NCBI RefSeq assembly: GCF_965638725.1
Contig: NC_134949.1
Location: forward strand, 54,774,151-54,838,150
Length of the DNA stretch: 64,000 nt
Reading direction: 5' to 3'
DNA from: Aptenodytes patagonicus
Taxonomy: Eukaryota; Chordata; Aves; Sphenisciformes; Spheniscidae
Of this stretch, positions 18,474 through 50,087 are shown in pieces. The notes under the pieces are model-generated. The model ran no database searches and was not told the DNA's origin. It was given only the letters and a program-made list of their open reading frames with translations. Made by a program: the position numbers and the translations under genes. Within the stretch, counting starts at the first letter, position 1. Each line of letters begins with the position of its first letter.

Positions 18474-18673
18474 GTACTAGATGACGCAGTTTATTAAGTA
18501 CCAAGCTGCAACAGAACACTTGGAATTAGATGCAGGGTAGCGGCTGCACAAGGTGGAAGGCAAAGGTTTCCAGGCTTCATTCATCTCCCTGTGAGCACTC
18601 TGTTTTCTGGCACTGGCACTTCCTCTGCTCCAGCATCTTCTCATCGCTAACCGTGTTGGAGGTTCAGCTGTGA
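18474..18673 (-). other. 3' terminal exon and poly(A) signal, array gene copy 1
   Basis: A good acceptor (CTGCCCTTCCACAG) precedes 18673 on the minus strand. A canonical AATAAA follows at 18495-18490, with cleavage expected some 10-30 nt further. Phase 0 reading gives eight codons and then TAG (SQLNLQHG). This is where the transcript should end. The protein frame probably stops earlier, at 19067, which would leave this exon untranslated. The exact cleavage position is estimated. Confidence 0.6.
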
Positions 18674-19066
18674 CTGTGGAAGGGCAGGAAAAGAAAAGGC
18701 TGTGTGTTAGTTTTACAGCAGGCTGGGCCAAAGGCGGCGCTGGAAGGTGGGTCCTGGAAGCACAGCACTAACGCGCAGATCCAGATACCGAAAACCAAAC
18801 ACTCAAACGTGTCGACAACAAACTTACAGCCTTTGGGCTACAGACGCACGTGGAAAATTGCGTTACATGGACATAGGGATCAACTTCTTGCGGTTTTTGC
18901 CTTATTTCTTGGCCAGCTCTTTCTCCCGTCTCTCTTTTAGACTGCTGTAGTTGGCTGTGACCCACCATGCTAGTCTCCCAACGGCTTCTGGGGTTAAGCC
19001 CTGGTTCTGCCCTGGTTCTTCCCGAGTCCCACGCGGAGTGGACAACTGTTCTCGCAGGTCCTGGTT

Positions 19067-22000
19067 TTATCTTGCCCGCTGCATGCGTTTTTTTGACTGC
19101 ATCTCCAGCTGTTGGGAAATGTCACCAACTTGTAGGCAGCAAAACAAAAGGAACTCAAAGAGAGAGCTCTCAAGTTACCCACTTCTGTGGCAATCCGTAA
19201 GGTGGGGGTCCGTCGAGACTGCATTCGTCACCTGCTGACAGAGTATTAAAATGTATTAAAATCTTGATGTACGGTGACCAGCTCCGCTTCTTCTCGCTCG
19301 GGGCCCCTGGGACCGCGTCCTGGTCGGTGAGGCCATTGAGCTCAGCAGCCCTGCTGGGACTCCTGGCTCATGGTTTTTACCCATCACGGTAACTACCTCC
19401 GTGTTCATCACCATCATCACCATCTACTGCTACAGCAGCAGCAGGAGCCTCGAGAGAAGTCAATCAATTGCAAAATACAGCCAACAGATAATTAGCAACA
19501 CGGAAAAAAAGTATAGGAAAAGAATCGTACGGGTTCCAGCAGAAAAAAATAATCACCTCAAATCCACCAAACAAACCAGAGCTCACCTTTCTTCTTTGTT
19601 TACCAACTTCGTTGGCCACCTCAGAACAGCTGTTCTCCATCTCCCCCCGGGAACTGAGCTGGGACTCTCTCTTTCTCCCCGCATATGCCATCAGCTTTGT
19701 CCGAAGTCCCTCCAGAAGCATCTTCAACCTGCACAGCAAATTAGTAAGGGAAGCGTGAAGCGAAGCAACGGTCGGCCTTTTTCACGTACTCTTATGTAAG
19801 CAGCACAGCCGTGGCGTGCTTCATCTGTAACATGCTCGACAGGCCAAGAATTGCTGACAACAGCCAGCCCTCCAGTGCCACACGTCACTTGGAGGGCCCA
19901 AAGTTTACCTGAACGGAGGAAGACGAGACTTCCTTCCCTCCCTCCCAGAACTGCCGGCAGCCTGCATTTGCAAGGCCTTTTGCAGCTTTTTAAAACCATA
20001 GGCTCAAGCACAGAAGCCCCTTGCAAGATGGAATGCGAGACTTGAATTTGCTCACAAACGGTTATGTACATGCTTTTACGTTAGAGTTCAGTAAAGCTTG
20101 ACTTCTACACAACGTGATATTTCTTTAAAGCACTAAAAAGCCATGCCTGGTACATTCTTCCTCCAGTGCGACGTTCCTTCCCCGCATTTCGTCCAGAAGC
20201 GCTTCTGATCGGCATTTCATCTTGGCCAGCTTCTTCACTTCCTTGCTTTCACTCCCACGCTTTCCAAATAGAAAAGATACATCACACGCAGAGCACAGGA
20301 ACGGGATGCATATGCAGCACGTGCAGACAGTGTTCTCCACAAAGAAGATAACACGGATCTCCCAGGTCCAGTCTCCTCTCGCAGCTCTCAACCACAGACC
20401 TCTCTCCAGTCCACAGCACACGGCCTACCCATCCAAGGAATCGTGCCGATGAGCGCAAGTGCCCCGCATATTGTCCACCAAGCAGATTCAAAACGCAGTA
20501 GCACCAGGGGAATGAGGAAACGTATAGACTTTTCCCCTGAGGGTGCCCTGCCCAAAAACCTGGGGGGTTCCCCACAGCCCACCGGATCTTTTCATAAATT
20601 ACCTGCCCACAAGAAATTCAAAGACTAAAACCAGTCATTCCCGGAAGCCGTTCATATACCTGCCAATGTTGGTGTTCCTTTGCAGTCCGTGTTGTCTGAA
20701 AGCCAGTTATCAAGTCCTCCAGGCCCTTACGAGCCTACAGCAGCATTAAAAGAAGAAAAAAGAAGTCACGCTAGGACTTTCCCGACCGAAGGTCACACCT
20801 CACGGCCTTTCTTCTTCTCTTGGCAGCATCAGTACAACGCAGTGTTTGCCTGCCCCGCAACGCCACCCGAGCACACAAAATACTGCCTATGGAGGTGTCG
20901 TTCCCTTACTAGTTGCGGATTTTCATCTTTGGAGGTCTCCTCGTTGCATTATGGACCCACACCTTCTGGACAAGGAATCCATAATCACTAAAACGGGAAG
21001 GTGACCAGAGTACAGGCAACTGAAGAAGTCCTGTCACAGTCTGACGATGCCAGTCAGGCCTCCAGGATGAGGCGCTCGGCACCACTAGAGCCCAAGGAAA
21101 GTCCGCAACCGAGGGTACCAAATCCCTCTACTGCGTGACTGTCTGAAGTGCTGCCTGAGGTCTCAACCTCACGACTGGTCTAAAGCAGAAAATACTTAAG
21201 CCAGTGCATTACTGTCAACTCCTTAACAAAGACGGCGTTAAGTAGGACTTGCTATGGTCTCATGGGACAACTCGCAAAGCCAGAAAGCTGGGGAGTGGGC
21301 CAGCAGGACTTCCAGAGCAGCCTATAGTCAGTAGAACAGAGGAACTGATCTCTCCTAGAGGCTCTCCAGGAAAACCTCATCTTAAAATTTCCCCACGTGA
21401 ATACGGAACTAGGCTCTGTAGCTCATGAAAAGGGAAGGCTCTGACTAGCTTACTGAGGCAGAGGCTTGCAGGACTTTCTCAAGGGCTTCAATGGTCTTGG
21501 CTTGTTGCTGGGCTGTGGCTTCCAGCCTGGCCTTTCCCACTTGGAGCCTGAAAAAGAAGTACAGGCCTTACCGCAGAAGTCCACAAGAGCACAAATCCCA
21601 AAAGAAGAGTGTGAAAGAGCCCCATCTAAAACAAGAGCACCTTTGGAAATCGTGTATTACTGTCTTGCTGGGATGCAAGAAGACAGTCCTGTTGTTTTCA
21701 CACAATCGCAGAAAGCGGAGCCTTGCTCCACTGTGTTACTTCCTTACCGTTGCATGCGTTCTTTCAGCTCTGGGATAGCCGCAGTTCGAGAAGACGTGAC
21801 CAGAAGGCCCTGCATTTTCCTGGAAGTTGTTAGTTCCCTCTTTTTATTCTTTATGGCGTTCTTCAGGGACTCGGCATAACACTCAGTCTGGGTACGCCGT
21901 TCTTTCAATTCCTGCAGCTGTCAAACCACAAGAAGAATCCCCAGTAGTCAGCTTAGGTTTGATAAAAAGGAGTGGACTGCTTTGACTCTCACGTCGACTC

Positions 22001-25000
22001 TCAAAACCCATGTTACTTCTTCATCTTTTATACTGGCCCCTCTCCTACGTCTACACTGATTTCCTACAGCGTTTCCTAAACGCTGCCACAACACTCCTCC
22101 TCCTCTCTCAAGGACTCTGAACACTCTTTGTAGCCCCTTGTTGGCTGCTCCAACACGGTTAGAAGCTCCTCCTGCTCCTACAGTGACTTTGCAACTCCAT
22201 AACAATGATGATGTGACGAGGGAATACAAAAAAGCACCAGCGCAACACTCCAGTGTGCCTACTCTTTCTCCGTCAGCACACGCTCCGCTTTGCCAAACCC
22301 AAGAGAAGCAGCACATACACGTGCTCCGTGAAACTTGAGAAATAGCTTTTTGAAAGGAATACACACACCCTTCTCCAATTAAGGACAAAGTGGCTTCACG
22401 GTTAGCGACCTTTCTAATCGTAGGCGCCAGGCTTATAAAACAAGGCGAGTCACTTACCTGTCACTCATCTACTCCTGTTGCAAAGTTGCCTAGTGTACTA
22501 AGACCACCTTAGCGCAGCCCTCCACTGTTAACTTCAAGCGGTGCAAACAGGCAGGCACCAAAGGCAGCAGTGCTGTTCCCTCCCAGCCCCCTCGTCACAG
22601 CTAGCCGCACCCTGAACCACCCCGGGTTACAGAAAACGCCCAAGAAAGGGATCAGTTCCCCGCTCTGGTTTGCTACAACAGAGGCCTGGGCCCCTGCCAA
22701 GAGACAAGAGACAGGCTTTCTCCATACCTTAGCTTTAGACCTGTCCAGTTCCTTCTGCAACTGCAGTTTCTGTTCCTGCAGGTCCCTGCTGTAGCGCTTC
22801 TTAGCTTCAAGTGAAGCTTCTGCCAGGGAGTTCTTTTTGAGAGCGTCGGCAAGCCCCTGCTGCAGCTGCCTGACCCACCTCTAAAGAAACAGTGTTCCAT
22901 GAGCATGGAGACATCAGTAAGAAGATGACAACATGAGAGATGCTTTTACTCATGGGATTATATCATTAGATCGGTCTGCAGGGTGGCCAGCAGGTCGAGG
23001 GAGGTGATTCCTCCCTTCTACTCCGCTCTCGTGAGACCCCACCTGGAGTACTGCATCCAGCTCTGGGGTCCGCAGCACAAGGAAGACATGGACTTGTTAG
23101 AGCGGGTCCAGAGGAGGGCCACAAAAATGATCAGAGGGCTGAAAGACCTCTCCCATGAAGAAAGGCTGAGAGAGCTGGGGTTGTTCAGCCTGGGGAAGAG
23201 GAGGCTCTGGGGAGACCTTATTGCAGCCTTCCAATATAGAAAGGCGGAGAGAGACTTTTTACCAAGGCCTGTAGCGGTAGGACAAGGGGCAACGGTTTTA
23301 AACTACAAGAGGGTAGACTTAGATTGGACATAAGGAAGACATTTTTTGCAGCAAGGGTGGTGGGACGCTGGACCAGGTTGCCCAGAGAAGTTGTGGATGC
23401 CCCATCCCTGGAAGTGTTCAAAGTCAGGTTGGACGGGGCTTTGAGCAACCTGATCTAGTGGAAGATGTCCCTGCCCATGGCAGGGGGTTGGGCGAGAAGA
23501 CCTTTAAAGGACCCTTCCAGCCCAAACCATTCCATGCTTCTATGACTCAGTGAATTCAAAGATAAGAGATTTTGGCCGCCACCAGCAGGCAGCTGCAGGC
23601 ATCTTTCTCAGCTGCGCACATCCAAACTATCGGCAGCTCTTCATGAGACTTTCCCCTTCCTAATACAGAGAAAAGGCTTAAGCATTCTTCTCCTTGGAAC
23701 ACAGGCTGAGAGTCTGCGCACGTGCTTTTTTCCAACCCACTGTGTTCCCTCTTTATGCAGACCTTCTGCTTCACAACGGGAAGAAAATGAGGTCGGAAAT
23801 ATGCTTCAGGTCCAGATTCAATAACCTCCTCTCAGCAGCACTCCAAAATGAACTCGGCAGCAAGAACAGCTCTCCGTACACTGACAGGTTCTATTTACAG
23901 ATATCTGCATCAGCCTCTATTAGAGTCACCTGTCTGTCGCCTTGACAATCTGCTTGAGTTGAAGCATCCTTCTTTAGCTGATGCTCTTCTCTCCCCAGTG
24001 CAGTAACCTGAGCGAGCGAGAACACAGACAGACAGTCAGACAGTGGGGAAAGGAATCCCCAGCAACACTGCAGCATGACACTGCATTTCAGCACCGGGGC
24101 TACAGAAGCGGGACTTCTGCATTACCTCCGGAAGAGAAAGCACCTCATTCTCAGAAGAGGAGTCAAAATCTTCCAGTTGTTCTGCTCCTCCCACTGGCAA
24201 GACACCTATGAAGGAGGCAAGAAGCGCGATGCTGCTGTGAGTGCTTATTTCCCTCTGCTTTTCCCCATCTGCTTCACTGCAGAGAAGCTTACAGAGGTAA
24301 CCATTTAGTCCGTCAGGAAATTACCATTGCCGCGCACCTCTGCAACGGACTGCACGCACGCTCCGTGTCTGTCTGCAGCTGGAAGCAGCACGCCGGCCGG
24401 CCCTTTCCTTGGACCTTCAGAATCCGTCTGCGTAATTTAAAAGACATGCGTGAGAACTGGCACAGACTCCTTCTCGACCCGTTTCCGCGCACAAAGCTCC
24501 CGCTTCAGCCAACACGCGTAACGTGGTAACAGGTGACGGGCAGAACGAAAAGGGCAAACGCAGGCAGCGTGTTAGGCATCTCTGTTGAGCAGGGCTTTCA
24601 AAAGGGGCCGAAGTACACCTGCCCAAGATAGAGAGGCCCTAGGCAGAAGCAGCTACGCATCTAGACTGTAGGCCCTGCGGGCGACCAGTTGACACTGACT
24701 GGATCCGGAGACGGGAGCTGTGTGGTGGAAAACCAGCAATCCCCACAGCGCCAGCCTTCTAGATATCAGAGGATTGTAACCGTTGGGAAGCTTTACCGCT
24801 TCAGTCCTGTACTAGAAATCCAGCTCCAAAGCCAGCTGCTAGGAGACCCGGGTCATTAGCTTGACCTCACCTCCTCCCAGTCCTAACTGAAGAGCTTGCC
24901 TGCAGCAGCGGCCTGTCAAGGTCCCAGTTACGAGCGTGTGGCGGAAGCAGCAGCAGCAGCAGAGGGAAACGAGCCCAGAAGCAAGCGAGCCCAGTGGGGC

Positions 25001-28000
25001 CCCACTGCCTCCTTCAGAGAAGGGGAAGAGTGGCTGGAAAGCTGCCCAGCGGAAAAGGACCTGGGGGCGTTGGTCGACAGCCGGCTGAATATGAGCAGCA
25101 GTGTGCCCAGGTGGCCAAGGCGGCCAATAGCATCCTGGCTTGGATCAGAAATAGCGTGGCCAGCTGGACTAGGGAAGCGATTGTCCCTTTGTACTTGGCA
25201 CTGGTGAGGCCGCACCTCGACTACCGTGTTTGCTTTTTGGGCCCCTCACTGCAAGAAAGACATTGAGGTGCTGGAGCGCGTCCAAAGAAGAGCAAGGAAG
25301 CTGGTGAAGGGTCTAGAGAACAGGTCCTATGAGGAGCGGCTGAGGGAACTGGGGCTTGTTTAGTCTGGAGGAAAGGAGGCTGAGGGCACACCTTATCGCT
25401 CTCTACAACTACCTGAAAGGAGGTTGTAGCGAGGTGGGTGTCGGTCTCTTTTCCCAAGTAGCAAGTGATAGGACAATTGGAAACAGCCTCAGGTTGGGCC
25501 AGGGGAGGTTTGGGTTGGATATTAGGCAAGATTTCTTCACTGAAAGGGTTGTCAAGCACTGGAACAGGCTGCCCAGGGAAGTGGTTGAGTCACCATCCCC
25601 GGAGGCTTTTAGAAGATGAGTATACGTGGCGCTTAGGGACACGGTTTAGGGCTGGACTCGGCAGTGTTAGGTGTACGGTTGCACTCGATGATCTTAAGGG
25701 TCTTTTCTGACCTAAACGATTCTATGATTCTACCTCAGAATCAAAAGGGGAGTCATCATCTTCCTCTTGTTCTGCTCCTCCCACTGGCAAGACACCTATG
25801 AAGGAGGCAAGAAGCGCGATGCTGCTGTGAGTGCTTATTTCACTCTGCTTTTCCCCATCTGCTTCACTGCAGAGAAGCTTACAGAGGTAACCATTTAGTC
25901 CGTCAGGAAATTACCATTGCCGCGCGCCTCTGCAACGGACTGCACGCACGCTCCGTGTCTGTCTGCAGCTGGAAGCAGCACGCCGGCCGGCCCTTTCCTT
26001 GGACCTTCAGAATCCGTCTGCGTAATTTAAAAGACATGCGTGAGAACTGGCACAGACTCCTTCTCGACCCGTTTCCGCGCACAAAGCTCCCGCTTCAGCC
26101 AACACGCGTAACGTGGTAACAGGTGACGGGCAGAACGAAAAGGGCAAACGCAGGCAGCGTGTTAGGCATCTCTGTTGAGCAGGGCTTTCAAAAGGGGCCG
26201 AAGTACACCTGCCCAAGATAGAGAGGCCCTAGGCAGAAGCAGCTACGCATCTAGACTGTAGGCCCTGCGGGCGACCAGTTGACACTGACTGGATCCGGAG
26301 ACGGGAGCTGTGTGGTGGAAAACCAGCAATCCCCACAGCGCCAGCCTTCTAGATATCAGAGGATTGTAACCGTTGGGAAGCTTTACCGCTTCAGTCCTGT
26401 ACTAGAAATCCAGCTCCAAAGCCAGCTGCTAGGAGACCCGGGTCATTAGCTTGACCTCACCTCCTCCCAGTCCTAACTGAAGAGCTTGCCTGCAGCAGCG
26501 GCCTGTCAAGGTCCCAGTTACGAGCGTGTGGCAGAAGCAGCAGCAGCAGCAGAGGGAAACGAGCCCAGAAGCAAGCGAGCCCAGTGGGGCCCCACTGCCT
26601 CCTTCAGAGAAGGGGAAGAGTGGCTGGAAAGCTGCCCAGCGGAAAAGGACCTGGGGGCGTTGGTCGACAGCCGGCTGAATATGAGCAGCAGTGTGCCCAG
26701 GTGGCCAAGGCAGCCAATAGCATCCTGGCTTGGATCAGAAATAGCGTGGCCAGCTGGACTAGGGAAGCGATTGTCCCTTTGTACTTGGCACTGGTGAGGC
26801 CGCACCTCGACTACCGTGTTTGCTTTTTGGGCCCCTCACTGCAAGAAAGACATTGAGGTGCTGGAGCGCGTCCAAAGAAGAGCAAGGAAGCTGGTGAAGG
26901 GTCTAGAGAACAGGTCCTATGAGGAGCGGTTGAGGGAACTGGGGCTTGTTTAGTCTGGAGGAAAGGAGGCTGAGGGCACACCTTATCGCTCTCTACAACT
27001 ACCTGAAAGGAGGTTGTAGCGAGGTGGGTGTCGGTCTCTTTTCCCAAGTAGCAAGTGATAGGACAATTGGAAACAGCCTCAGGTTGGGCCAGGGGAGGTT
27101 TGGGTTGGATATTAGGCAAGATTTCTTCACTGAAAGGGTTGTCAAGCACTGGAACAGGCTGCCCAGGGAAGTGGTTGAGTCACCATCCCCGGAGGCTTTT
27201 AGAAGATGAGTATACGTGGCGCTTAGGGACACGGTTTAGGGCTGGACTCGGCAGTGTTAGGTGTACGGTTGCACTCGATGATCTTAAGGGTCTTTTCTGA
27301 CCTAAACGATTCTATGATTCTACCTCAGAATCAAAAGGGGAGTCATCATCTTCCTCTTGTTCTGCTCCTCCCACTGGCAAGACACCTATGAAGGAGGCAA
27401 GAAGCGCGATGCTGCTGTGAGTGCTTATTTCCCTCTGCTTTTCCCCATCTGCTTCACTGCAGAGAAGCTTACAGAGGTAACCATTTAGTCCGTCAGGAAA
27501 TTACCATTGCCGCGCGCCTCTGCAACGGACTGCACGCACGCTCCGTGTCTGTCTGCAGCTGGAAGCAGCACGCCGGCCGGCCCTTTCCTTGGACCTTCAG
27601 AATCCGTCTGCGTAATTTAAAAGACATGCGTGAGAACTGGCACAGACTCCTTCTCGACCCGTTTCCGCGCACAAAGCTCCCGCTTCAGCCAACACGCGTA
27701 ACGTGGTAACAGGTGACGGGCAGAACGAAAAGGGCAAACGCAGGCAGCGTGTTAGGCATCTCTGTTGAGCAGGGCTTTCAAAAGGGGCCGAAGTACACCT
27801 GCCCAAGATAGAGAGGCCCTAGGCAGAAGCAGCTACGCATCTAGACTGTAGGCCCTGCGGGCGACCAGTTGACACTGACTGGATCCGGAGACGGGAGCTG
27901 TGTGGTGGAAAACCAGCAATCCCCACAGCGCCAGCCTTCTAGATATCAGAGGATTGTAACCGTTGGGAAGCTTTACCGCTTCAGTCCTGTACTAGAAATC

Positions 28001-29405
28001 CAGCTCCAAAGCCAGCTGCTAGGAGACCCGGGTCATTAGCTTGACCTCACCTCCTCCCAGTCCTAACTGAAGAGCTTGCCTGCAGCAGCGGCCTGTCAAG
28101 GTCCCAGTTACGAGCGTGTGGCGGAAGCAGCAGCAGCAGCAGAGGGAAACGAGCCCAGAAGCAAGCGAGCCCAGTGGGGCCCCACTGCCTCCTTCAGAGA
28201 AGGGGAAGAGTGGCTGGAAAGCTGCCCAGCGGAAAAGGACCTGGGGGCGTTGGTCGACAGCCGGCTGAATATGAGCAGCAGTGTGCCCAGGTGGCCAAGG
28301 CGGCCAATAGCATCCTGGCTTGGATCAGAAATAGCGTGGCCAGCTGGACTAGGGAAGCGATTGTCCCTTTGTACTTGGCACTGGTGAGGCCGCACCTCGA
28401 CTACCGTGTTTGCTTTTTGGGCCCCTCACTGCAAGAAAGACATTGAGGTGCTGGAGCGCGTCCAAAGAAGAGCAAGGAAGCTGGTGAAGGGTCTAGAGAA
28501 CAGGTCCTATGAGGAGCGGCTGAGGGAACTGGGGCTTGTTTAGTCTGGAGGAAAGGAGGCTGAGGGCACACCTTATCGCTCTCTACAACTACCTGAAAGG
28601 AGGTTGTAGCGAGGTGGGTGTCGGTCTCTTTTCCCAAGTAGCAAGTGATAGGACAATTGGAAACAGCCTCAGGTTGGGCCAGGGGAGGTTTGGGTTGGAT
28701 ATTAGGCAAGATTTCTTCACTGAAAGGGTTGTCAAGCACTGGAACAGGCTGCCCAGGGAAGTGGTTGAGTCACCATCCCCGGAGGCTTTTAGAAGATGAG
28801 TATACGTGGCGCTTAGGGACACGGTTTAGGGCTGGACTCGGCAGTGTTAGGTGTACGGTTGCACTCGATGATCTTAAGGGTCTTTTCTGACCTAAACGAT
28901 TCTATGATTCTACCTCAGAATCAAAAGGGGAGTCATCATCTTCCTCTTGTTCTGCTCCTGCTGCTGGCAGGACACCTACGAAGGAGGCAAGAAGCGCGAT
29001 GCTGCTGTGAGTGCTTATTTCCCTCTGCTTCTCCCCAGCCCTCAAGCCCTGCGTCCCGTCGACGGGTTATCGTTCTCCTACAGGCCCTAGTGATTTGTCC
29101 TCGTCACCTCCTCCACGGTGGCGGATCGTACCTGCTCCGGTCATTGCAGGTGCGCCCAAGGGAACGTCAGCAGTTGTCCCAGAGCAAGAGCTGTCAAGTA
29201 CTGCTGGGCCTTCTGTGCTTCCTGCAGAACATTCACCCGTCCTTTCACAGTTCACAAATTCCTCCCATTGGTTATAAATACTATATAGAGAAAGGAAGGA
29301 AATGCATTCAGTAAAAATACCTCCACACTTGCATACACTCTCTACTGGAAGAGCAACAGCCATTCATGAGCCATCCTCCCCATATTCATAGCCAGCTGGT
29401 AAAGG

Positions 29406-29440
<35 letters not shown>

Positions 29441-32400
29441 ACAGAGCTTACTGCACTGCTAGAGTAGTGGAGACTGAAATACTCACTACAGGCATGTTCA
29501 CGCTACAGGTGCCTATTCTTGTCTATGGAGTAACTCAGCCCTGCTGGCTACAGTCTCATCTGAAAACCCCCGCTCCGTTTTGAGGGCCAGTGAGATTAAC
29601 AAGACCCCTGGCAGACTGACATCTAACTACAAGGCTTCTACCTCAGCGGGATGCTATACTAATGCTGTAGCAACTCTTCACATCAAGCCGGGGTAACGTC
29701 TCCTCAAGCCCAGTCCTGACTTTGAAGGGCTTCAGAAATTCCCATGGTTAGTCTGAGGACCTGGGAGTTTAGAGAGCTCCTAAGTGGGATATCGAGAGGC
29801 CAAGAAAGATTGCGGTTGCATTCCAAGCACACCAGGGGTTAAGTACATTGCATAGTGTTATCTTCTAACAACCCTGGCAGAGGGTCAGCTGGGGCTCCGG
29901 AGAGAGACCACTTTCAGGTTTGCTTCATAAGCAGAACTAAAAACCAAACAAAAAGCCCCAAACAAACAAGAAAAGAAAATATTAAAAACGCGCTCCAGAC
30001 CAAGGCTGCGCTGCAAAATGGTGCATTAGCGCAACATTGATACTGTGCCAGCAGCCGGGAGGGAAGGAATGAACGTGTTGTTTTGGTAGAGCAATCCTCA
30101 AACGTGCTTTATTCCTAAAGGGGTTTTTACTCCACAGTTTACCCAGGCACCCTTCTCTCCTGCTTCCCATTGGTACAGGCTGACAGGGGGGGCAGGGGGA
30201 GAAGAAATGAAGTCGAGATGCAGTGACAAGAGGTCACGGGCAGTTGTTTATGGCTAGACAAGGCATGCTCGTAGGCATAATGCAGTTCATTCACCCATCA
30301 CTAGGCTACTATTTCCTTCAGCCTAGCTGTTAAGCACACATAGCCACCTTAGCGAAGGAACGGCCAGGGGTGCAAAGCTACCCACGAGAGGAGGAAAACC
30401 GCTGAAGAGTTTAACTCGGGGGATATCAGTTAGATCCCCTCTGCAACAAAAGGCAGGTAGTTGCTAGTCAGTTGAGTTGAGTGGAGCTTGGCAGCACACA
30501 GGTGGATTCTCGGAGAGAACCGTGGGGGGAAGTTTCCCTCAACTTCCAAATCCACTCTCGACACAGAAGGAGATGCATCAGAAGACGTCACTGGGCCCAG
30601 CTTCAGCAAAGGACTCAACGCCTCATTAAACCCCGGTGATGTTACCAAAAAGGGCCGTACTCAGCACGGACGTTCTGAGAACGCAGCTGCTCTAACGAGG
30701 ACGTAAAACACTTACTCAGCATATCCAGACAGTCTGGCATAAGAGAGAGCTGTCCTGCCAAACTCGTCTTCATGAGAAAGTTCAGCACCATGCCGAAGAA
30801 GAAGTCGTATTACATTCACATCCCCAGCAGCAACAGCAACCATAAGAGTGGTCCTAAAGCATCCAAGAGATGATAGGAAATACATCAGCTTCTGCGGACA
30901 TTGCATTGCCATTACTTCAGTCCCTCTTTGCTCCCCAAACAATTCATTTCCCCTCTCCTACAGGCAGAGTGAAAGCACAGCCAAACACGTGGAAGCGTCG
31001 GAGAATTGAGGCTGGCAGGACCTCAGGAGGTCTCCAGGCCAACCACCTGCCCAGAGCAGACTCGGGGGGTGGGGGCGCACGCGTGTGTGCACACGCACGC
31101 GTGTGTGTGGCACCACAGCCAACGCTTTCTTGCAGTCCTCGGTGCAGAAATCGTCCCCTGAGGTAAGAGAGCAGCCGAGTGGGGGTGTGCTGTCACAAGT
31201 CACGCGGTAGGAGCTCCTTCCGAGCAGCTCCTGGTTCTTTTTCAAAGCTCGTTCCTATGGCTGCCATCAATCCAACTTGAACAATGCTAAGGAGTCCCAC
31301 GCGCACTTTTGAGAAACCCTTCACCTTTTATGCCTATCTCGAGCATGCACGTCAGCTCCTTTTTGAAGAAGGAACTCGACCATCTCTTCACAGTGCTCGG
31401 TGATCGCAACAGCAAGCGGAGTGTATCCCATCTGAAAGGAGAAATCACCTCCCTTACAATAACACAGAAAAGTCAAGCAAGTTGTGGGAAGAGGAGCCTT
31501 ACCCAAAGTCCACGCTTACCTTATTCTGAGCATCAATATGGGCATTGTGCTCAAGTAACAGCTCCACTAGAGATTTGCTAGGAATGGCGGCAGCCAGGTG
31601 AAGGGCAGTGTTGCCGCCAGCACCTCTGAGGTCAGGGTTGGCACCGTGTTCCAGCAGAATAGCCACACAGTCTTTGTGCTGGTGCTCTACTGCCTGGAAA
31701 GAAGACACAAAGGAGGAATAACTTCCAACATCTACGTTTCTCTCTGTCAGAACTCCCGCGTCTTCCCAACACTGGCAAGTACGAGCGTCTTCAAAGATTA
31801 GGCAACATATGCCCCTTCCCCGCTGACTACAAGGTACCTGTTTCTACGCAGGCCTATGTGAAGAATCATGCAAGGTGTGTATCGCTCAGTGCATAATCGA
31901 TAAGCCCAAGGTACAACAGCATAACGTATTCCATGTACCTTCATCAGCGGCGATTTCTTAGAATTGTCACGAGGGTTTAGCTGGCACTTCTTTCCTGCTA
32001 GAAATCGAACGACATCTGCATGGCCGTTCGCACAAGCAAGATGCAGAGGCGTCCTAGAAATTAAATATATTCAGTTAACACAGACAGACAGCTGAAGACA
32101 TCGTTTCAGGCTGTGGTACGCGCCACATAGGGCCACAAGCCTCAACTGGCAAAAAACAAGCCGAAAGCAAGTGTCCTCGTTCCAGAGCCGGTGGCGGGAG
32201 CTGCACACCCAAAGCCTGGGGCTGGCTAGGAAAAATCCCCAACGCATCCGCTGAGTCAGGAGGCATTTCCTCGGCTGTGTCAATGAACCTGCACAGACAG
32301 ACTCCTGTGCCCAGGCACTGGTCCCTGCCTCCAGCAGGACTGCCCAGCCACCCAGCACAGCAAAGGAGACCGCGTCTTGGCAGCCTGGAGTCTATGGAGG

Positions 32401-33067
32401 CTACGTAAGTCTACAGAGACTGCGGAGTCTGCGTAAGCCCCTGGGTTTTCCCCCGATCAGTCCCGTGCCAGACATGTCGCAGAGACATAGGGGATGGGAT
32501 TTCTAACGGCAACGGGAAGGCTGTGCCGTGTCTGTCCGCAAATCCATGCCCTGCTCAAGCAAGCCGCTCGGTCTGGCAAGGGGAAAGGAGCCGTCTCTGC
32601 TTGGACGAAGGCCTGCTGAGCTCCACAGAAGATTCACTACAGGGACCAGGCTGGCAGGGCAGAGCAGGGCAGGGCAGAGCGGAGCGGAGCGGAGCGGAGC
32701 ATCCGCCGCCTCCTGTCTCAGCTTGGGTCAGGCCTCCGCTAAGGCCAGCGCTGTGGAGCCGGCCCTGCTCCTAGGGCGCTTGCGACCGTGCCGGGCTTTG
32801 CCGGCTCTTCCAGCCAGGGTGGGTGGAGGCTTTGCTACGGGCACTGCCCGCCCCTTACTGCTTCTGCGCGTTCCGCCCGTTGACGCGGAATCTCTTCCGC
32901 CACCAGCGCCGCTGCAGCCGGGCCAGGTCACCGCTGGCGGCCGCGCTGTGCAGCCCGCCCCAGCCCTCCTCCCGGAGCTCGGAGGCCCCGGCGGCGCCGG
33001 GCGCGGGAGCGCTGCCGGACGGCGGCCGCTCCCGCACCCTCCCGAGGAGTCCGATGAGCCTCTGCAT
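19067..33067 (-). CDS. ANKRD26-like ankyrin/coiled-coil protein, array copy 1 (three 55-aa repeats)
   Basis: Exons in transcription order: 33067-32859, 32053-31939, 31693-31520, 31431-31325, 30853-30716, 29280-29132, 28975-28914, 27607-27505, 27385-27324, 26017-25915, 25795-25734, 24427-24325, 24205-24126, 24007-23930, 22880-22728, 21917-21748, 21547-21454, 20695-20660, 20259-20147, 19728-19587, 19108-19067 (TAA 19069-19067). Phases agree throughout, giving 764 residues. Residues 25-248 are ankyrin repeats ([78 protein letters not shown]). Residues 248-297 are a linker and 298-489 are acidic repeats with [10 protein letters not shown]. Residues 516-654 are coiled coil ([40 protein letters not shown]). 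This order is typical of ANKRD26/CCDC144 proteins. The ankyrin-to-coil exons are well supported. The last four exons are weaker: one needs a GC donor (CAG|GCATGG at 20147). The shared TAA may mark a pseudogene. Confidence 0.82.
22977..23547 (+). mobile_element. Second CR1 LINE 3' fragment (unit 1 intron)
   Basis: A different CR1 subfamily from the module element. It has a longer intact reading frame ([60 protein letters not shown]) and a 3' end CCATTCCATGCTTCTATGAC. It lies antisense within the intron between exons 24007-23930 and 22880-22728. No intact ORF2, so it is a dead 5'-truncated copy. Confidence 0.93.
24175..25764. repeat. 1,590-bp intragenic module, unit 1 copy 1
   Basis: Direct repeat of 1,590 bp. 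On the minus strand it holds a 62-nt exon (25795-25734, shared across the module border) and a 103-nt exon (24427-24325), with a + strand CR1 between them. This copy's 103-nt exon has GTG where the others have GCG (Ala to Val) near 24337. A CAG run lies at about 24945-24962. Confidence 0.93.
25015..25731 (+). mobile_element. CR1 LINE 3' fragment inside module (unit 1 copy 1)
   Basis: Translates, with frameshifts, to the C-terminal end of CR1 ORF2 ([47 protein letters not shown]). It ends with the CR1 terminal repeat GATTCTATGATTCT at 25718-25731. It is 5' truncated, as usual for CR1, and is antisense to the host gene. Its 3' end directly abuts the splice donor of the 62-nt exon. Confidence 0.92.
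25765..27354. repeat. 1,590-bp intragenic module, unit 1 copy 2
   Basis: Second direct repeat with exons 27385-27324 (62 nt, across the border) and 26017-25915 (103 nt). Private differences include GGCAGAAGCAG at 26530, AAGGCAGCC at 26707 and GAGCGGTTGAGG at 26924, all in non-exon DNA. Confidence 0.93.
26605..27321 (+). mobile_element. CR1 LINE 3' fragment inside module (unit 1 copy 2)
   Basis: Same insertion as at 25015, copied with the module, with the same truncation point and terminal repeat. It is a product of module amplification and not an independent insertion. Confidence 0.91.
27355..28944. repeat. 1,590-bp intragenic module, unit 1 copy 3
   Basis: Third direct repeat, nearest the ankyrin exons. 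Exon 27607-27505 (103 nt) is followed upstream by the CR1. At its border is the first acidic exon 28975-28914, which differs from the inner copies (VLPAAG in place of VLPVGG), so it is the original non-repeated flank. Confidence 0.92.
28195..28911 (+). mobile_element. CR1 LINE 3' fragment inside module (unit 1 copy 3)
   Basis: Same CR1 insertion carried by module copy 3. The terminal repeat ends at 28911, next to the donor of exon 28975-28914. Confidence 0.91.
29408..29437. repeat. (CA)n microsatellite, unit 1
   Basis: Dinucleotide run of about 14 repeats in the intron between exons 30853-30716 and 29280-29132. The unit 2 copy is similar and the unit 3 copy is four bases shorter. Confidence 0.95.
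31074..31110. repeat. Alternating purine-pyrimidine tract (GCGCACGCGTGTGTGC type), unit 1
   Basis: About 36 bp of nearly perfect alternating purine/pyrimidine with ACGCGT palindromes, in the intron between exons 31431-31325 and 30853-30716. Copies lie near 45005-45041 and 60501-60537. Such sequence favours Z-DNA (established chemistry); a role is not shown. Confidence 0.85.
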
Positions 33068-35588: not shown

Positions 35589-35788
35589 GTACTAGATGAC
35601 GCAGTTTATTAAGTACCAAGCTGCAACAGAACACTTGGAATTAGATGCAGGGTAGCGGCTGCACAAGGTGGAAGGCAAAGGTTTCCAGGCTTCATTCATC
35701 TCCCTGTGAGCACTCTGTTTTCTGGCACTGGCACTTCCTCTGCTCCAGCATCTTCTCATCGCTAACCGTGTTGGAGGTTCAGCTGTGA
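35589..35788 (-). other. 3' terminal exon and poly(A) signal, array gene copy 2
   Basis: Same exon as at 18474-18673, with AATAAA at 35610-35605. It lies about 2.5 kb to the right of copy 1's exon 1, so the genes follow one another head to tail with short intergenic spacers. Confidence 0.6.
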
Positions 35789-36181
35789 CTGTGGAAGGGC
35801 AGGAAAAGAAAAGGCTGTGTGTTAGTTTTACAGCAGGCTGGGCCAAAGGCGGTGCTGGAAGGTGGGTCCTGGAAGCACAGCACTAACGCGCAGATCCAGA
35901 TACTGAAAACCAAACACTCAAACGTGTCGACAACAAACTTACAGCCTTTGGGCTACAGACGCACGTGGAAAATTGCGTTACATGGACATAGGGATCAACT
36001 TCTTGCGGTTTTTGCCTTATTTCTTGGTCAGCTCTTTCTCCCGTCTCTCTTTTAGACTGCTGTAGTTGGCTGTGACCCACCATGCTAGTCTCCCAACGGC
36101 TTCTGGGGTTAAGCCCTGGTTCTGCCCTGGTTCTTCCCGAGTCCCACGCGGAGTGGACAACTGTTCTCGCAGGTCCTGGTT

Positions 36182-39100
36182 TTATCTTGCCCGCTGCATG
36201 CGTTTTTTTGACTGCATCTCCAGCTGTTGGGAAATGTCACCAACTTGTAGGCAGCAAAACAAAAGGAACTCAAAGAGAGAGCTCTCAAGTTACCCACTTC
36301 TGTGGCAATCCGTAAGGTGGGGGTCCGTCGAGACTGCATTCGTCACCTGCTGACAGAGTATTAAAATGTATTAAAATCTTGATGTACGGTGACCAGCTCC
36401 GCTTCTTCTCGCTCGGGGCCCCTGGGACCGCGTCCTGGTCGGTGAGGCCATTGAGCTCAGCAGCCCTGCTGGGACTCCTGGCTCATGGTTTTTACCCATC
36501 ACGGTAACTACCTCCGTGTTCATCACCATCATCACCATCTACTGCTACAGCAGCAGCAGGAGCCTCGAGAGAAGTCAATCAATTGCAAAATACAGCCAAC
36601 AGATAATTAGCAACACGGAAAAAAAGTATAGGAAAAGAATCGTACGGGTTCCAGCAGAAAAAAATAATCACCTCAAATCCACCAAACAAACCAGAGCTCA
36701 CCTTTCTTCTTTGTTTACCAACTTCGTTGGCCACCTCAGAACAGCTGTTCTCCATCTCCCCCCGGGAACTGAGCTGGGACTCTCTCTTTCTCCCCGCATA
36801 TGCCATCAGCTTTGTCCGAAGTCCCTCCAGAAGCATCTTCAACCTGCACAGCAAATTAGTAAGGGAAGCGTGAAGCGAAGCAACGGTCGGCCTTTTTCAC
36901 GTACTCTTATGTAAGCGGCACAGCCGTGGCGTGCTTCATCTGTAACATGCTCGACAGGCCAAGAATTGCTGACAACAGCCAGCCCTCCAGTGCCACACGT
37001 CACTTGGAGGGCCCAAAGTTTACCTGAACGGAGGAAGACGAGACTTCCTTCCCTCCCTCCCAGAACTGCCGGCAGCCTGCATTTGCAAGGCCTTTTGCAG
37101 CTTTTTAAAACCATAGGCTCAAGCACAGAAGCCCCTTGCAAGATGGAATGCGAGACTTGAATTTGCTCACAAACGGTTATGTACATGCTTTTACGTTAGA
37201 GTTCAGTAAAGCTTGACTTCTACACAACGTGATATTTCTTTAAAGCACTAAAAAGCCATGCCTGGTACATTCTTCCTCCAGTGCGACGTTCCTTCCCCGC
37301 ATTTCGTCCAGAAGCGCTTCTGATCGGCATTTCATCTTGGCCAGCTTCTTCACTTCCTTGCTTTCACTCCCACGCTTTCCAAATAGAAAAGATACATCAC
37401 ACGCAGAGCACAGGAACGGGATGCATATGCAGCACGTGCAGACAGTGTTCTCCACAAAGAAGATAACACGGATCTCCCAGGTCCAGTCTCCTCTCGCAGC
37501 TCTCAACCACAGACCTCTCTCCAGTCCACAGCACACGGCCTACCCATCCAAGGAATCGTGCCGATGAGCGCAAGTGCCCCGCATATTGTCCACCAAGCAG
37601 ATTCAAAACGCAGTAGCACCAGGGGAATGAGGAAACGTATAGACTTTTCCCCTGAGGGTGCCCTGCCCAAAAACCTGGGGGGTTCCCCACAGCCCACCGG
37701 ATCTTTTCATAAATTACCTGCCCACAAGAAATTCAAAGACTAAAACCAGTCATTCCCGGAAGCCGTTCATATACCTGCCAATGTTGGTGTTCCTTTGCAG
37801 TCCGTGTTGTCTGAAAGCCAGTTATCAAGTCCTCCAGGCCCTTACGAGCCTACAGCAGCATTAAAAGAAGAAAAAAGAAGTCACGCTAGGACTTTCCCGA
37901 CCGAAGGTCACACCTCACGGCCTTTCTTCTTCTCTTGGCAGCATCAGTACAACGCAGTGTTTGCCTGCCCCGCAACGCCACCCGAGCACACAAAATACTG
38001 CCTATGGAGGTGTCGTTCCCTTACTAGTTGCGGATTTTCATCTTTGGAGGTCTCCTCGTTGCATTATGGACCCACACCTTCTGGACAAGGAATCCATAAT
38101 CACTAAAACGGGAAGGTGACCAGAGTACAGGCAACTGAGGAAGTCCTGTCACAGTCTGACGATGCCAGTCAGGCCTCCAGGATGAGGCGCTCGGCACCAC
38201 TAGAGCCCAAGGAAAGTCCGCAACCGAGGGTACCAAATCCCTCTACTGCGTGACTGTCTGAAGTGCTGCCTGAGGTCTCAACCTCACGACTGGTCTAAAG
38301 CAGAAAATACTTAAGCCAGTGCATTACTGTCAACTCCTTAACAAAGACGGCGTTAAGTAGGACTTGCTATGGTCTCATGGGACAACTCGCAAAGCCAGAA
38401 AGCTGGGGAGTGGGCCAGCAGGACTTCCAGAGCAGCCTATAGTCAGTAGAACAGAGGAACTGATCTCTCCTAGAGGCTCTCCAGGAAAACCTCATCTTAA
38501 AATTTCCCCACGTGAATACGGAACTAGGCTCTGTAGCTCATGAAAAGGGAAGGCTCTGACTAGCTTACTGAGGCAGAGGCTTGCAGGACTTTCTCAAGGG
38601 CTTCAATGGTCTTGGCTTGTTGCTGGGCTGTGGCTTCCAGCCTGGCCTTTCCCACTTGGAGCCTGAAAAAGAAGTACAGGCCTTACCGCAGAAGTCCACA
38701 AGAGCACAAATCCCAAAAGAAGAGTGTGAAAGAACCCCATCTAAAACAAGAGCACCTTTGGAAATCGTGTATTACTGTCTTGCTGGGATGCAAGAAGACA
38801 GTCCTGTTGTTTTCACACAATCGCAGAAAGCGGAGCCTTGCTCCACTGTGTTACTTCCTTACCGTTGCATGCGTTCTTTCAGCTCTGGGATAGCCGCAGT
38901 TCGAGAAGACGTGACCAGAAGGCCCTGCATTTTCCTGGAAGTTGTTAGTTCCCTCTTTTTATTCTTTATGGCGTTCTTCAGGGACTCGGCATAACACTCA
39001 GTCTGGGTACGCCGTTCTTTCAATTCCTGCAGCTGTCAAACCACAAGAAGAATCCCCAGTAGTCAGCTTAGGTTTGATAAAAAGGAGTGGACTGCTTTGA

Positions 39101-42100
39101 CTCTCACGTCGACTCTCAAAACCCATGTTACTTCTTCATCTTTTATACTGGCCCCTCTCCTACGTCTACACTGATTTCCTACAGCGTTTCCTAAACGCTG
39201 CCACAACACTCCTCCTCCTCTCTCAAGGACTCTGAACACTCTTTGTAGCCCCTTGTTGGCTGCTCCAACACGGTTAGAAGCTCCTCCTGCTCCTACAGTG
39301 ACTTTGCAACTCCATAACAATGATGATGTGACGAGGGAATACAAAAAAGCACCAGCGCAACACTCCAGTGTGCCTACTCTTTCTCCGTCAGCACACGCTC
39401 CGCTTTGCCAAACCCAAGAGAAGCAGCACATACACGTGCTCCGTGAAACTTGAGAAATAGCTTTTTGAAAGGAATACACACACCCTTCTCCAATTAAGGA
39501 CAAAGTGGCTTCACGGTTAGCGACCTTTCTAATCGTAGGCGCCAGGCTTATAAAACAAGGCGAGTCACTTACCTGTCACTCATCTACTCCTGTTGCAAAG
39601 TTGCCTAGTGTACTAAGACCACCTTAGCGCAGCCCTCCACTGTTAACTTCAAGCGGTGCAAACAGGCAGGCACCAAAGGCAGCAGTGCTGTTCCCTCCCA
39701 GCCCCCTCGTCACAGCTAGCCGCACCCTGAACCACCCCGGGTTACAGAAAACGCCCAAGAAAGGGATCAGTTCCCCGCTCTGGTTTGCTACAACAGAGGC
39801 CTGGGCCCCTGCCAAGAGACAAGAGACAGGCTTTCTCCATACCTTAGCTTTAGACCTGTCCAGTTCCTTCTGCAACTGCAGTTTCTGTTCCTGCAGGTCC
39901 CTGCTGTAGCGCTTCTTAGCTTCAAGTGAAGCTTCTGCCAGGGAGTTCTTTTTGAGAGCGTCGGCAAGCCCCTGCTGCAGCTGCCTGACCCACCTCTAAA
40001 GAAACAGTGTTCCATGAGCATGGAGACATCAGTAAGAAGATGACAACATGAGAGATGCTTTTACTCATGGGATTATATCATTAGATCGGTCTGCAGGGTG
40101 GCCAGCAGGTCGAGGGAGGTGATTCCTCCCTTCTACTCCGCTCTCGTGAGACCCCACCTGGAGTACTGCATCCAGCTCTGGGGTCCGCAGCACAAGGAAG
40201 ACATGGACTTGTTAGAGCGGGTCCAGAGGAGGGCCACAAAAATGATCAGAGGGCTGAAAGACCTCTCCCATGAAGAAAGGCTGAGAGAGCTGGGGTTGTT
40301 CAGCCTGGGGAAGAGGAGGCTCTGGGGAGACCTTATTGCAGCCTTCCAATATAGAAAGGCGGAGAGAGACTTTTTACCAAGGCCTGTAGCGGTAGGACAA
40401 GGGGCAACGGTTTTAAACTACAAGAGGGTAGACTTAGATTGGACATAAGGAAGACATTTTTTGCAGCAAGGGTGGTGGGACGCTGGACCAGGTTGCCCAG
40501 AGAAGTTGTGGATGCCCCATCCCTGGAAGTGTTCAAAGTCAGGTTGGACGGGGCTTTGAGCAACCTGATCTAGTGGAAGATGTCCCTGCCCACGGCAGGG
40601 GGTTGGGCGAGATGACCTTTAAAGGACCCTTCCAGCCCAAACCATTCCATGCTTCTATGACTCAGTGAATTCAAAGATAAGAGATTTTGGCCGCCACCAG
40701 CAGGCAGCTGCAGGCATCTTTCTCAGCTGCGCACATCCAAACTATCGGCAGCTCTTCATGAGACTTTCCCCTTCCTAATACAGAGAAAAGGCTTAAGCAT
40801 TCTTCTCCTTGGAACACAGGCTGAGAGTCTGCGCACGTGCTTTTTTCCAACCCACTGTGTTCCCTCTTTATGCAGACCTTCTGCTTCACAACGGGAAGAA
40901 AATGAGGTCGGAAATACGCTTCAGGTCCAGATTCAATAACCTCCTCTCAGCAGCACTCCAAAATGAACTCGGCAGCAAGAACAGCTCTCCGTACACTGAC
41001 AGGTTCTATTTACAGATATCTGCATCAGCCTCTATTAGAGTCACCTGTCTGTCGCCTTGACAATCTGCTTGAGTTGAAGCATCCTTCTTTAGCTGATGCT
41101 CTTCTCTCCCCAGTGCAGTAACCTGAGCGAGCTAGAACACAGACAGACAGTCAGACAGTGGGGAAAGGAATCCCCAGCAACACTGCAGCATGACACTGCA
41201 TTTCAGCACCAGGGCTACAGATGCGGGACTTCTGCATTACCTCCGGAAGAGAAAGCACCTCATTCTCAGAAGAGGAGTCAAAATCTTCCAGTTGTTCTGC
41301 TCCTCCCACTGGCAAGACACCTATGAAGGAGGCAAGAAGCGCGATGCTGCTGTGAGTGCTTATTTCCCTCTGCTTTTCCCCATCTGCTTCACTGCAGAGA
41401 AGCTTACAGAGGTAACCATTTAGTCCGTCAGGAAATTACCATTGCCGCGCGCCTCTGCAACGGACTGCACGCACGCTCCGTGTCTGTCTGCAGCTGGAAG
41501 CAGCACGCCGGCCGGCCCTTTCCTTGGACCTTCAGAATCCGTCTGCGTAATTTAAAAGACATGCGTGAGAACTGGCACAGACTCCTTCTCGACCCGTTTC
41601 CGCGCACAAAGCTCCCGCTTCAGCCAACACGCGTAACGTGGTAACAGGTGACGGGCAGAACGGAAAGGGCAAACGCAGGCAGCGTGTTAGGCATCTCTGT
41701 TGAGCAGGGCTTTCAAAAGGGGCCGAAGTACACCTGCCCAAGATAGAGAGGCCCTAGGCAGAAGCAGCTACGCATCTAGACTGTAGGCCCTGCGGGCGAC
41801 CAGTTGACACTGACTGGATCCGGAGACGGGAGCTGTGTGGTGGAAAACCAGCAATCCCCACAGCGCCAGCCTTCTAGATATCAGAGGATTGTAACCGTTG
41901 GGAAGCTTTACCGCTTCAGTCCTGTACTAGAAATCCAGCTCCAAAGCCAGCTGCTAGGAGACCCGGGTCATTAGCTTGACCTCACCTCCTCCCAGTCCTA
42001 ACTGAAGAGCTTGCCTGCAGCAGCGGCCTGTCAAGGTCCCAGTTACGAGCGTGTGGCGGAAGCAGCAGCAGCAGAGGGAAACGAGCCCAGAAGCAAGCGA

Positions 42101-43337
42101 GCCCAGTGGGGCCCCACTGCCTCCTTCAGAGAAGGGGAAGAGTGGCTGGAAAGCTGCCCAGCGGAAAAGGACCTGGGGGCGTTGGTCGACAGCCGGCTGA
42201 ATATGAGCAGCAGTGTGCCCAGGTGGCCAAGGCGGCCAATAGCATCCTGGCTTGGATCAGAAATAGCGTGGCCAGCTGGACTAGGGAAGCGATTGTCCCT
42301 TTGTACTTGGCACTGGTGAGGCCGCACCTCGACTACCGTGTTTGCTTTTTGGGCCCCTCACTGCAAGAAAGACATTGAGGTGCTGGAGCGCGTCCAAAGA
42401 AGAGCAAGGAAGCTGGTGAAGGGTCTAGACAACAGGTCCTATGAGGAGCGGCTGAGGGAACTGGGGCTTGTTTAGTCTGGAGGAAAGGAGGCTGAGGGCA
42501 CACCTTATCGCTCTCTACAACTACCTGAAAGGAGGTTGTAGCGAGGTGGGTGTCGGTCTCTTTTCCCAAGTAGCAAGTGATAGGACAATTGGAAACAGCC
42601 TCAGGTTGGGCCAGGGGAGGTTTGGGTTGGATATTAGGCAAGATTTCTTCACTGAAAGGGTTGTCAAGCACTGGAACAGGCTGCCCAGGGAAGTGGTTGA
42701 GTCACCATCCCCGGAGGCTTTTAGAAGATGAGTATACGTGGCGCTTAGGGACACGGTTTAGGGCTGGACTCGGCAGTGTTAGGTGTACGGTTGCACTCGA
42801 TGATCTTAAGGGTCTTTTCTGACCTAAACGATTCTATGATTCTACCTCAGAATCAAAAGGGGAGTCATCATCTTCCTCTTGTTCTGCTCCTGCTGCTGGC
42901 AGGACACCTACGAAGGAGGCAAGAAGCGCGATGCTGCTGTGAGTGCTTATTTCCCTCTGCTTCTCCCCAGCCCTCAAGCCCTGCGTCCCGTCGACGGGTT
43001 ATCGTTCTCCTACAGGCCCTAGTGATTTGTCCTCGTCACCTCCTCCACGGTGGCGGATCGTACCTGCTCCGGTCATTGCAGGTGCGCCCAAGGGAACGTC
43101 AGCAGTTGTCCCAGAGCAAGAGCTGTCAAGTACTGCTGGGCCTTCTGTGCTTCCTGCAGAACATTCACCCGTCCTTTCACAGTTCACAAATTCCTCCCAT
43201 TGGTTATAAATACTATATAGAGAAAGGAAGGAAATGCATTCAGTAAAAATACCTCCACACTTGCATACACTCTCTACTGGAAGAGCAACAGCCATTCATG
43301 AGCCATCCTCCCCATATTCATAGCCAGCTGGTAAAGG

Positions 43338-43372
<35 letters not shown>

Positions 43373-48200: not shown

Positions 48201-48565
48201 TCACTGTTTCAGGGAAGGCTCTGACTCGCTTCCTGAGGCGGAGGCTTGCAGGTCTTTCTCAAGGGCTTCAATGGTCTTGGCTTGTTGCTGGGCTGTGGCT
48301 TCCAGCCTGGCCCTTCCCACTTGGAGCCTGAAAAAGAAGTACAGGCCTTACCGCAGAAGTCCACAAGAGCACAAATCCCAAAAGAAGAGTGTGAAAGAAC
48401 CCCATCTAAAACAAGAGCACCTTTGGAAATCGTGTATTACTGTCTTGCTGGGATGCAAGAAGACAGTCCTGTTGTTTTCACACAATCGCAGAAAGCGGAG
48501 CCTTGCTCCACTGTGTTACTTCCTTACCGTTGCACGCGTTCTTCCAGCTCTGGGATAGCCGCAGG
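48201..48565 (-). pseudogene. Fragment of a diverged ANKRD26-like paralog at the unit 2/3 border
   Basis: Same relic and same breakpoint as at 34295-34659, with the same lost donor. Its identity at both borders shows that the junction existed before the last amplification. Confidence 0.8.
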
Positions 48566-49494: not shown

Positions 49495-49694
49495 GTACTA
49501 GATGACGCAGTTTATTAAGTACCAAGCTGCAACAGAACACTTGGAATTAGATGCAGGGTAGCGGCTGCACAAGGTGGAAGGCAAAGGTTTCCAGGCTTCA
49601 TTCATCTCCCTGTGAGCACTCTGTTTTCTGGCACTGGCACTTCCTCTGCTCCAGCATCTTCTCATCGCTAACCGTGTTGGAGGTTCAGCTGTGA
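49495..49694 (-). other. 3' terminal exon and poly(A) signal, array gene copy 3
   Basis: Same exon and acceptor as in copies 1 and 2, with AATAAA at 49516-49511. Confidence 0.6.
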
Positions 49695-50087
49695 CTGTGG
49701 AAGGGCAGGAAAAGAAAAGGCTGTGTGTTAGTTTTACAGCAGGCTGGGCCAAAGGCGGCGCTGGAAGGTGGGTCCTGGAAGCACAGCACTAACGCGCAGA
49801 TCCAGATACTGAAAACCAAACACTCAAACGTGTCGACAACAAACTTACAGCCTTTGGGCTACAGACGCACGTGGAAAATTGCGTTACATGGACATAGGGA
49901 TCAACTTCTTGCGGTTTTTGCCTTATTTCTTGGCCAGCTCTTTCTCCCGTCTCTCTTTTAGACTGCTGTAGTTGGCTGTGACCCACCATGCTAGTCTCCC
50001 AACGGCTTCTGGGGTTAAGCCCTGGTTCTGCCCTGGTTCTTCCCGAGTCCCACGCGGAGTGGACAACTGTTCTCGCAGGTCCTGGTT

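Follow-up and report, generated by a model that had tools for sequence, protein, structure and literature searches.

How can a coding segment gain or lose whole pairs of exons while the reading frame is kept, and by what event would the first additional pair have arisen? The question is raised by a locus of the king penguin (Aptenodytes patagonicus), of which we analysed one stretch of 64,000 nucleotides, referred to here as the window. Comparison of the window with itself uncovered three near-identical tandem gene copies on the minus strand, the matched parts of which lie approximately 13.9, 15.5 and 17.1 kb apart; the spacing varies because the number of modules varies (Table 1). The module repeats inside the gene copies showed 98.6-99.3% identity over at least 1.7 kb in the same comparison, which argues that they did not arise by chance. 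The module measures 1,590 bp in five of the six cases and 1,587 bp in gene copy 2, where a 3-bp intronic gap is found. Each gene copy starts with exons E1 to E6 (209, 115, 174, 107, 138 and 149 nt), which are followed by n pairs of a 62-nt and a 103-nt exon, then by an 80-nt exon and the coiled-coil exons, n being 3, 1 and 2 in gene copies 1, 2 and 3, respectively. From E1 to the second coiled-coil exon, the exon phases agree across all three gene copies.

Table 1. Positions of the gene copies, their array exons and other repeated features in the window.
Feature	Position	Strand	Remark
Gene copy 1, 3 modules	18647..33067	-	First modelled ATG to the stop after SQLNLQHG (C-terminus of king-penguin model P0124)
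Gene copy 2, 1 module	35762..46998	-	Fits annotated LOC143155616
Gene copy 3, 2 modules	49668..62494	-	
Copy 1, 62-nt exon E62.1, first in array	28914..28975	-	
Copy 1, 103-nt exon, module 1	27505..27607	-	
Copy 1, 62-nt chimeric exon E62.2	27324..27385	-	First 10 residues 80-nt-exon-like, next 11 E62.1-like
Copy 1, 103-nt exon, module 2	25915..26017	-	
Copy 1, 62-nt chimeric exon E62.3	25734..25795	-	
Copy 1, 103-nt exon, module 3	24325..24427	-	Single A to V change, AEVRGN
Copy 1, terminal 80-nt exon E80	24126..24205	-	GAG/GT at position 62, where E62 ends
Copy 2, 62-nt exon E62.1	42846..42907	-	
Copy 2, 103-nt exon	41440..41542	-	
Copy 2, terminal 80-nt exon	41241..41320	-	
Copy 3, 62-nt exon E62.1	58345..58406	-	
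Copy 3, 103-nt exon, module 1	56936..57038	-	
Copy 3, 62-nt chimeric exon E62.2	56755..56816	-	
Copy 3, 103-nt exon, module 2	55346..55448	-	
Copy 3, terminal 80-nt exon	55147..55226	-	
LINE remnant in module intron (module 3 of copy 1)	25153..25733	+	Tail abuts the splice donor of the 62-nt exon
354-bp segment copies	21431-21784, 34305-34658, 38546-38899, 48211-48564, 52452-52805, 63732-64000		

The 62-nt exon is entered in phase 1 and left in phase 0, and the 103-nt exon is entered in phase 0 and left in phase 1, with AG/GT borders in all six modules. Together they comprise 165 nt, or 55 codons, and are frame-neutral as a pair, neither exon being so alone. Since phase 1 is both the exit phase of E6 and the entry phase of the 80-nt exon, any number of pairs, even zero, keeps the frame. 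The preliminary description had given the exon lengths, their phases and the joint 55 codons correctly to the base in all six modules, we recovered its module counts of 3, 1 and 2, and the interval that it had singled out, 24126..28975, covers in copy 1 exactly the first 62-nt exon, the terminal 80-nt exon and everything in between. One correction is that the array closes with an 80-nt exon homologous to the 62-nt exon. Proteins of about 764, 654 and 709 residues had been predicted for the three copies; the steps of 55 and 110 residues between them are firm, but the absolute lengths were not reproduced, that of copy 2 because the annotated model that fits it is already 795 aa long and partial. 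Only copy 1 has lost an AG acceptor ahead of the first coiled-coil exon (24017-24018; AG to CG, the other two copies having A). A CAG in frame, located 9 nt further downstream, could take over its role, so the idea that copy 1 is broken was set aside.

The self-comparison also detected a 354-bp segment carrying a coiled-coil exon. Every gene contains a duplicate of this segment, and a further one lies where one gene copy meets the next; the latter kind has a stop of its own and is possibly a relic. A truncated copy 1, as the boundary segments might suggest, was rejected, since the stop used in the P0124 model precedes those segments. The array is adjoined by exons of a WD-repeat gene on the plus strand (9442-14669), which judging from its sequence may be WDR91; the WD40 matches are weak, below the cut-off and in pieces. 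An Rfam search at the gathering threshold gave no matches.

The origin of the added modules can be read from the 62-nt exons. Exon E62.1 and the 80-nt exon are 88% alike over 114 bp. At the sites where these two differ, E62.2 of copy 1 carries the 80-nt-exon base at every site up to index 77 and the E62.1 base at every site from index 91 on, with a single parental switch inside a 13-nt identical tract, AGGAGCAGAACAA. In the alignment, the other two added 62-nt exons (E62.3 of copy 1 and E62.2 of copy 3) look the same as E62.2 of copy 1. Judged by sequence, each added 62-nt exon is a chimera that combines part of the terminal 80-nt exon with part of the first 62-nt one, the apparent mark of unequal crossing-over within an exon; template switching between the outer exons of a one-module gene would leave an identical scar. 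The module intron also contains a LINE remnant, presumably CR1-like, which was recognised by its similarity to a second element of the window over 25153-25399 and 25501-25603 and was read by eye for the remainder. The 80-nt exon has GAG/GT at position 62 in all three gene copies, and in E62 the LINE tail directly follows GAG/GT, so insertion of the LINE may have shortened the exon by 18 nt (6 codons) and fixed the GAG/GT donor.

The starting point was most likely a one-module gene consisting, like copy 2, of a 62-nt exon, the LINE, a 103-nt exon and an 80-nt exon. The two outer exons, being homologous, would have crossed over unequally within the 13-nt tract, in a direction that we infer, and so created a chimeric 62-nt exon together with a second module. 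Later exchange among the 1.59-kb modules and among the gene copies of about 14 kb would then have given arrays of 1 to 4 units, and similar arrays would have been formed separately, or homogenised, in several bird families. Each module would insert a frame-neutral exon pair encoding 55 residues, acidic and presumably disordered, into the stretch that connects the ankyrin domain to the coiled coil.

Two other accounts of the locus bear on this scheme. The modules could have come from recombination between LINE copies or from replication slippage rather than from crossing-over between exons, and a LINE remnant is indeed contained in the module. However, the boundary of the module lies within an exon, and it is in the 13-nt tract that 80-nt-exon sequence gives way to that of the first 62-nt exon, which renders such an origin improbable. 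The other account holds that there are not three real genes, some of the apparent copies being uncollapsed alleles or products of faulty assembly. Outside the modules, the gene copies differ at 16 of 10,128 aligned ungapped sites (15, 9 and 8 in the pairwise comparisons), a level that alleles could show. Against this, every copy has its own substitutions (8, 7 and 1 private to the respective copies) and its own module number, and another protein of the king penguin contains four units, beginning with a different one. We regard the allelic explanation as unlikely; if it held, the difference in modules would itself be an allelic length polymorphism. Returning to three genes grown by crossing-over between exons, any two modules are separated by between 1 and 10 substitutions over approximately 1,590 bp, of which 4 are chimera sites in comparisons of the first module with later ones. 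We infer from these few differences that the duplications of both the gene copies and the modules are recent, and length differences between individuals are likely as a consequence. Exonic constraint among the gene copies was not significant, with 1 variable site in 2,333 exonic and 15 in 7,795 other sites (Fisher p = 0.088).

The exon order was compared with annotated proteins by using the 495-residue spliced model of copy 2 as a query, which retrieved 1,777 proteins at E <= 1e-5 among 7,990 scored candidates; the best 120 were listed. The best match, king-penguin LOC143155616, is identical over the entire query, has the exon order E6-62-103-80, and has a last residue that fits copy 2 and neither copy 1 nor copy 3. 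Its annotation joins the 62- and 103-nt exons as predicted, and includes one unit. This protein, together with the multi-unit proteins of other birds, bears out the proposal that the exon pair is repeated in frame. Another king-penguin protein, LOC143159165, has four units, the first of which (GVLPAGGAEQ) occurs in none of the three window copies, and so its gene presumably lies elsewhere. The N-terminus of LOC143159165 matches a stretch inside the 3' gene part of the window, and is apparently an exon that was joined in error from a neighbouring copy.

Protein searches, three in all, together yielded 132 proteins, a set biased towards what the queries found. The unit profile applied to them had as its input 42 units, drawn from at most 14 of these same proteins, which match it by construction. 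Eight palaeognath, 12 fowl or waterfowl, 2 dog and 2 other proteins (sturgeon and one more) were set aside before counting; among the remaining 108, at least one full unit was detected in 81 and at least two in 62. The highest numbers of full units were 12 in P0123 (manakin), 10 in P0121 (barn owl) and P0125 (manakin), and 7 in P0122 (Calonectris) and P0130 (manakin), and many birds seem to have built such arrays. The profile found no full unit in the palaeognath (0/8), fowl or waterfowl (0/12) and dog (0/2) proteins of this query-biased set, so absence outside Neoaves is only a lead; one of the two other proteins did contain a full unit. Partial matches were seen in 9 of the 20 palaeognath and fowl or waterfowl proteins, that in kiwi P0062 falling over its SPWDSE stretch. 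One scan of viral contigs for DNA of relatives gave 11 pattern matches and no relative. Units are spaced by 54 or 55 aa in many proteins and by 51-62 aa or irregularly in others. In manakin P0123 and P0125, some units contain runs that resemble intron read-through in gene models, and another unit type has 62 residues. Six Accipiter gentilis proteins (P0006, P0007, P0008, P0010, P0011 and P0012), isoforms X36-X47 of 858 residues each, differ in their combinations of units, which would fit either alternative use of exon pairs or mis-mapped reads. These observations suggest that gene models of such arrays call for caution.

A tree of units was constructed from 88 of 139 extracted units over 55 columns; many of its forks are unresolved, and near-copies ease clustering. 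Buteo, Accipiter, Pseudopipra, Pipra, Corapipo, Caloenas, Lathamus, Cyanistes, Poecile and Taeniopygia were left out. In this 88-unit tree, all 11 multi-row groups, defined at family or genus level, made up one side of a branch, with starred SH-aLRT support in 8, and group membership changed 11 times on the tree, the lowest number possible, whereas shuffles averaged 58. On this alignment, units group by bird family in the set that was treed. Among genera with at least two units, the nearest neighbour of a unit belonged to the same genus for 86 of 135 units. This was so for all 41 units of the penguin, shearwater, owls, stork and cormorant, but for none of the 16 units of two tits and the zebra finch and none of the 9 units of two manakins; the contrast argues that some arrays are young or homogenised and others old and diverged. 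Units of the shearwater (Calonectris, P0122) are arranged as dimers, with a lag-2 identity of 1.00 in three of five comparisons and lag-1 values of 0.79-0.93, whereas those of Morphnus form trimers (lag 3, 0.96-1.00 in 3/3; lag 1, 0.72-0.80). The shift-2 and shift-3 test was run on 10 proteins, of which P0121 and P0124 gave no units to the pattern used. Among the eight usable proteins, clear higher-order repeats were detected in two (P0122 and P0057) and in part in P0123; no clear higher-order arrangement was seen in the six other than P0122 and P0057, and the six units of P0130 are identical.

The gene had been linked to proteins of the ANKRD26/CCDC144 type, and the domain matches agree with this. 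The 495-aa model of copy 2 contains five stretches of PF00023 ankyrin repeats (E 1.1e-35) and a PF14915 CCDC144C match of 57.9 bits against a cut-off of 35; the latter match scored 57.4 bits in P0124. A Pfam search of both sequences gave no match over the units, and reported neither Olduvai nor kringle. P0124 also had NCBIfam matches, with scores that fall far short of the cut-offs; these reflect similarity of its ankyrin and coiled-coil parts. The repeat core had been likened to an SPWDSE-type motif. The penguin motif is SPFDSE, and SPWDSE occurs in snowy owl P0018, in manakins and, by a pattern check, in 3 of 14 further relatives, including kiwi and falcon; the same check found none in the other 11, both dog proteins included, so that a link to mammals is conjectural. 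The acidic character was borne out, as one 55-residue unit has 12 D+E and 4 K+R; the same unit has four [ST]xx[DE] sites of the casein-kinase-2 type. In an AlphaFold2 model of the four-unit P0124 (37 aligned sequences), the ankyrin part has pLDDT values of about 87-98, residues 229-530 are nearly all below 50, and long helices begin at 532. The mean pLDDT of 59 and pTM of 0.43 mean that the relative placement of the domains is not readable. As the linker proposal required, the units are thus predicted to be disordered between a confident ankyrin part and long helices, and the repeat segment may be a variable, adjustable acidic spacer.

Whether the exons are used at all, and whether the spacer matters, are separate issues. 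The 103-nt exon and the repeated 62-nt exons might be skipped or never spliced, the array being an intronic repeat whose annotation echoes gene prediction. The splice signals are weak: with a rough matrix, the 103-nt exon was not singled out, coming 4th among 94 open candidates with lengths of 40-250 nt and compatible phases, and the donor of the 62-nt exon scored poorly. Annotated models also have doubtful parts, such as the intron-like runs in manakin proteins. The 103-nt exon stands despite its score because its peptide occurs in annotated proteins of many birds. Moreover, a unit of approximately 55 aa is found in frame across many families, with conserved residues common to 139 units, which untranslated sequence would not be expected to retain; translation is favoured, and we give an unspliced array little credence. 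A translated repeat might still be functionless, its length drifting because disordered in-frame spacers are tolerated. The wide variation of unit number between proteins and the lack of significant constraint within the window are in line with this, but different families preserve the frame and portions of the acidic core, and we put the functionless repeat at somewhat under an even chance. Taken together, we conclude with considerable confidence that the array is an intragenic tandem repeat of an exon pair in a bird gene of the ANKRD26/POTE/CCDC144 kind, which grew by crossing-over between its outer exons and then by exchange among modules and genes; its exons would be spliced in vivo, and their product would act as a spacer.

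In the abstract openings of open-licence PMC literature, no account of the bird repeat was found; PMC13431229 contains neither 'ANKRD' nor 'ankyrin', and ANKRD26 is mentioned for quail expression only in the part of PMC4587967 seen. A coding repeat of variable number nested in a tandem gene array had been called unusual, which is overstated as to kind, since LPA KIV-2 and NBPF are precedents. The LPA unit encodes a kringle, which is folded, in a secreted protein, whereas the penguin unit is a spacer predicted to be disordered; the human coding repeats of LPA and NBPF have been tied to blood lipids and brain evolution. LPA KIV-2 is described as a block of 5.6 kb containing a 160-bp and a 182-bp exon, of which an allele carries between 1 and more than 40 copies (PMC6314250). 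It resembles the penguin module as a two-exon block in tandem, although variation in LPA is known between alleles and our penguin counts come from one assembly. NBPF/Olduvai (DUF1220) is described as having two-exon tandem units of about 1.6 kb in three-unit higher-order repeats (PMC9584774). The likeness lies in the two exons per unit of about 1.6 kb and in the Morphnus trimers and Calonectris dimers; the difference is that the two penguin sequences gave no Olduvai Pfam match. Closer by domains is ANKRD26, which has ankyrin repeats and then a coiled coil, as does the penguin gene in a comparison by domains alone; it differs in that P0124 has no PF12001 match at E up to 0.1, such a match being present in some goose and duck relatives. 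Human ANKRD26 is reported at centriole distal appendages, where it recruits PIDD1 (PMC11984956). The primate POTE genes, ankyrin and coiled-coil genes derived from ANKRD26, share intragenic exon duplication with the penguin gene, exons 6-9 having been duplicated in the great-ape ancestor, but the part of the POTE description seen contains no open-ended exon-pair array (PMC7073761).

As in those exon-block systems, the penguin pair is frame-neutral only jointly, and its number differs among near-identical copies (3, 1 and 2, with 4 in the further king-penguin protein). Because the bird array resides in a protein family different from LPA and NBPF, it is a separate instance of a known sort of repeat; new here are the chimeric added exons, the grouping of units by family with higher-order repeats, and the predicted disordered segment. 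One could tentatively envisage a Neoavian counterpart of NBPF/Olduvai, in which a hypermutable exon pair was repeatedly amplified in groups including hawks, owls, shearwaters, manakins and penguins, individuals within a species vary, by 55-residue steps, in the acidic disordered tether that links the ankyrin and coiled-coil parts, the choice of exon pairs in splicing adds a second layer, and length is under selection. LPA and NBPF are each a single system, while the bird family lets birth, homogenisation and higher-order structure be studied in many instances, in arrays that span 1 to about 12 full units, some of them very young, and the founding crossover of the penguin array is still legible to 13 bases.
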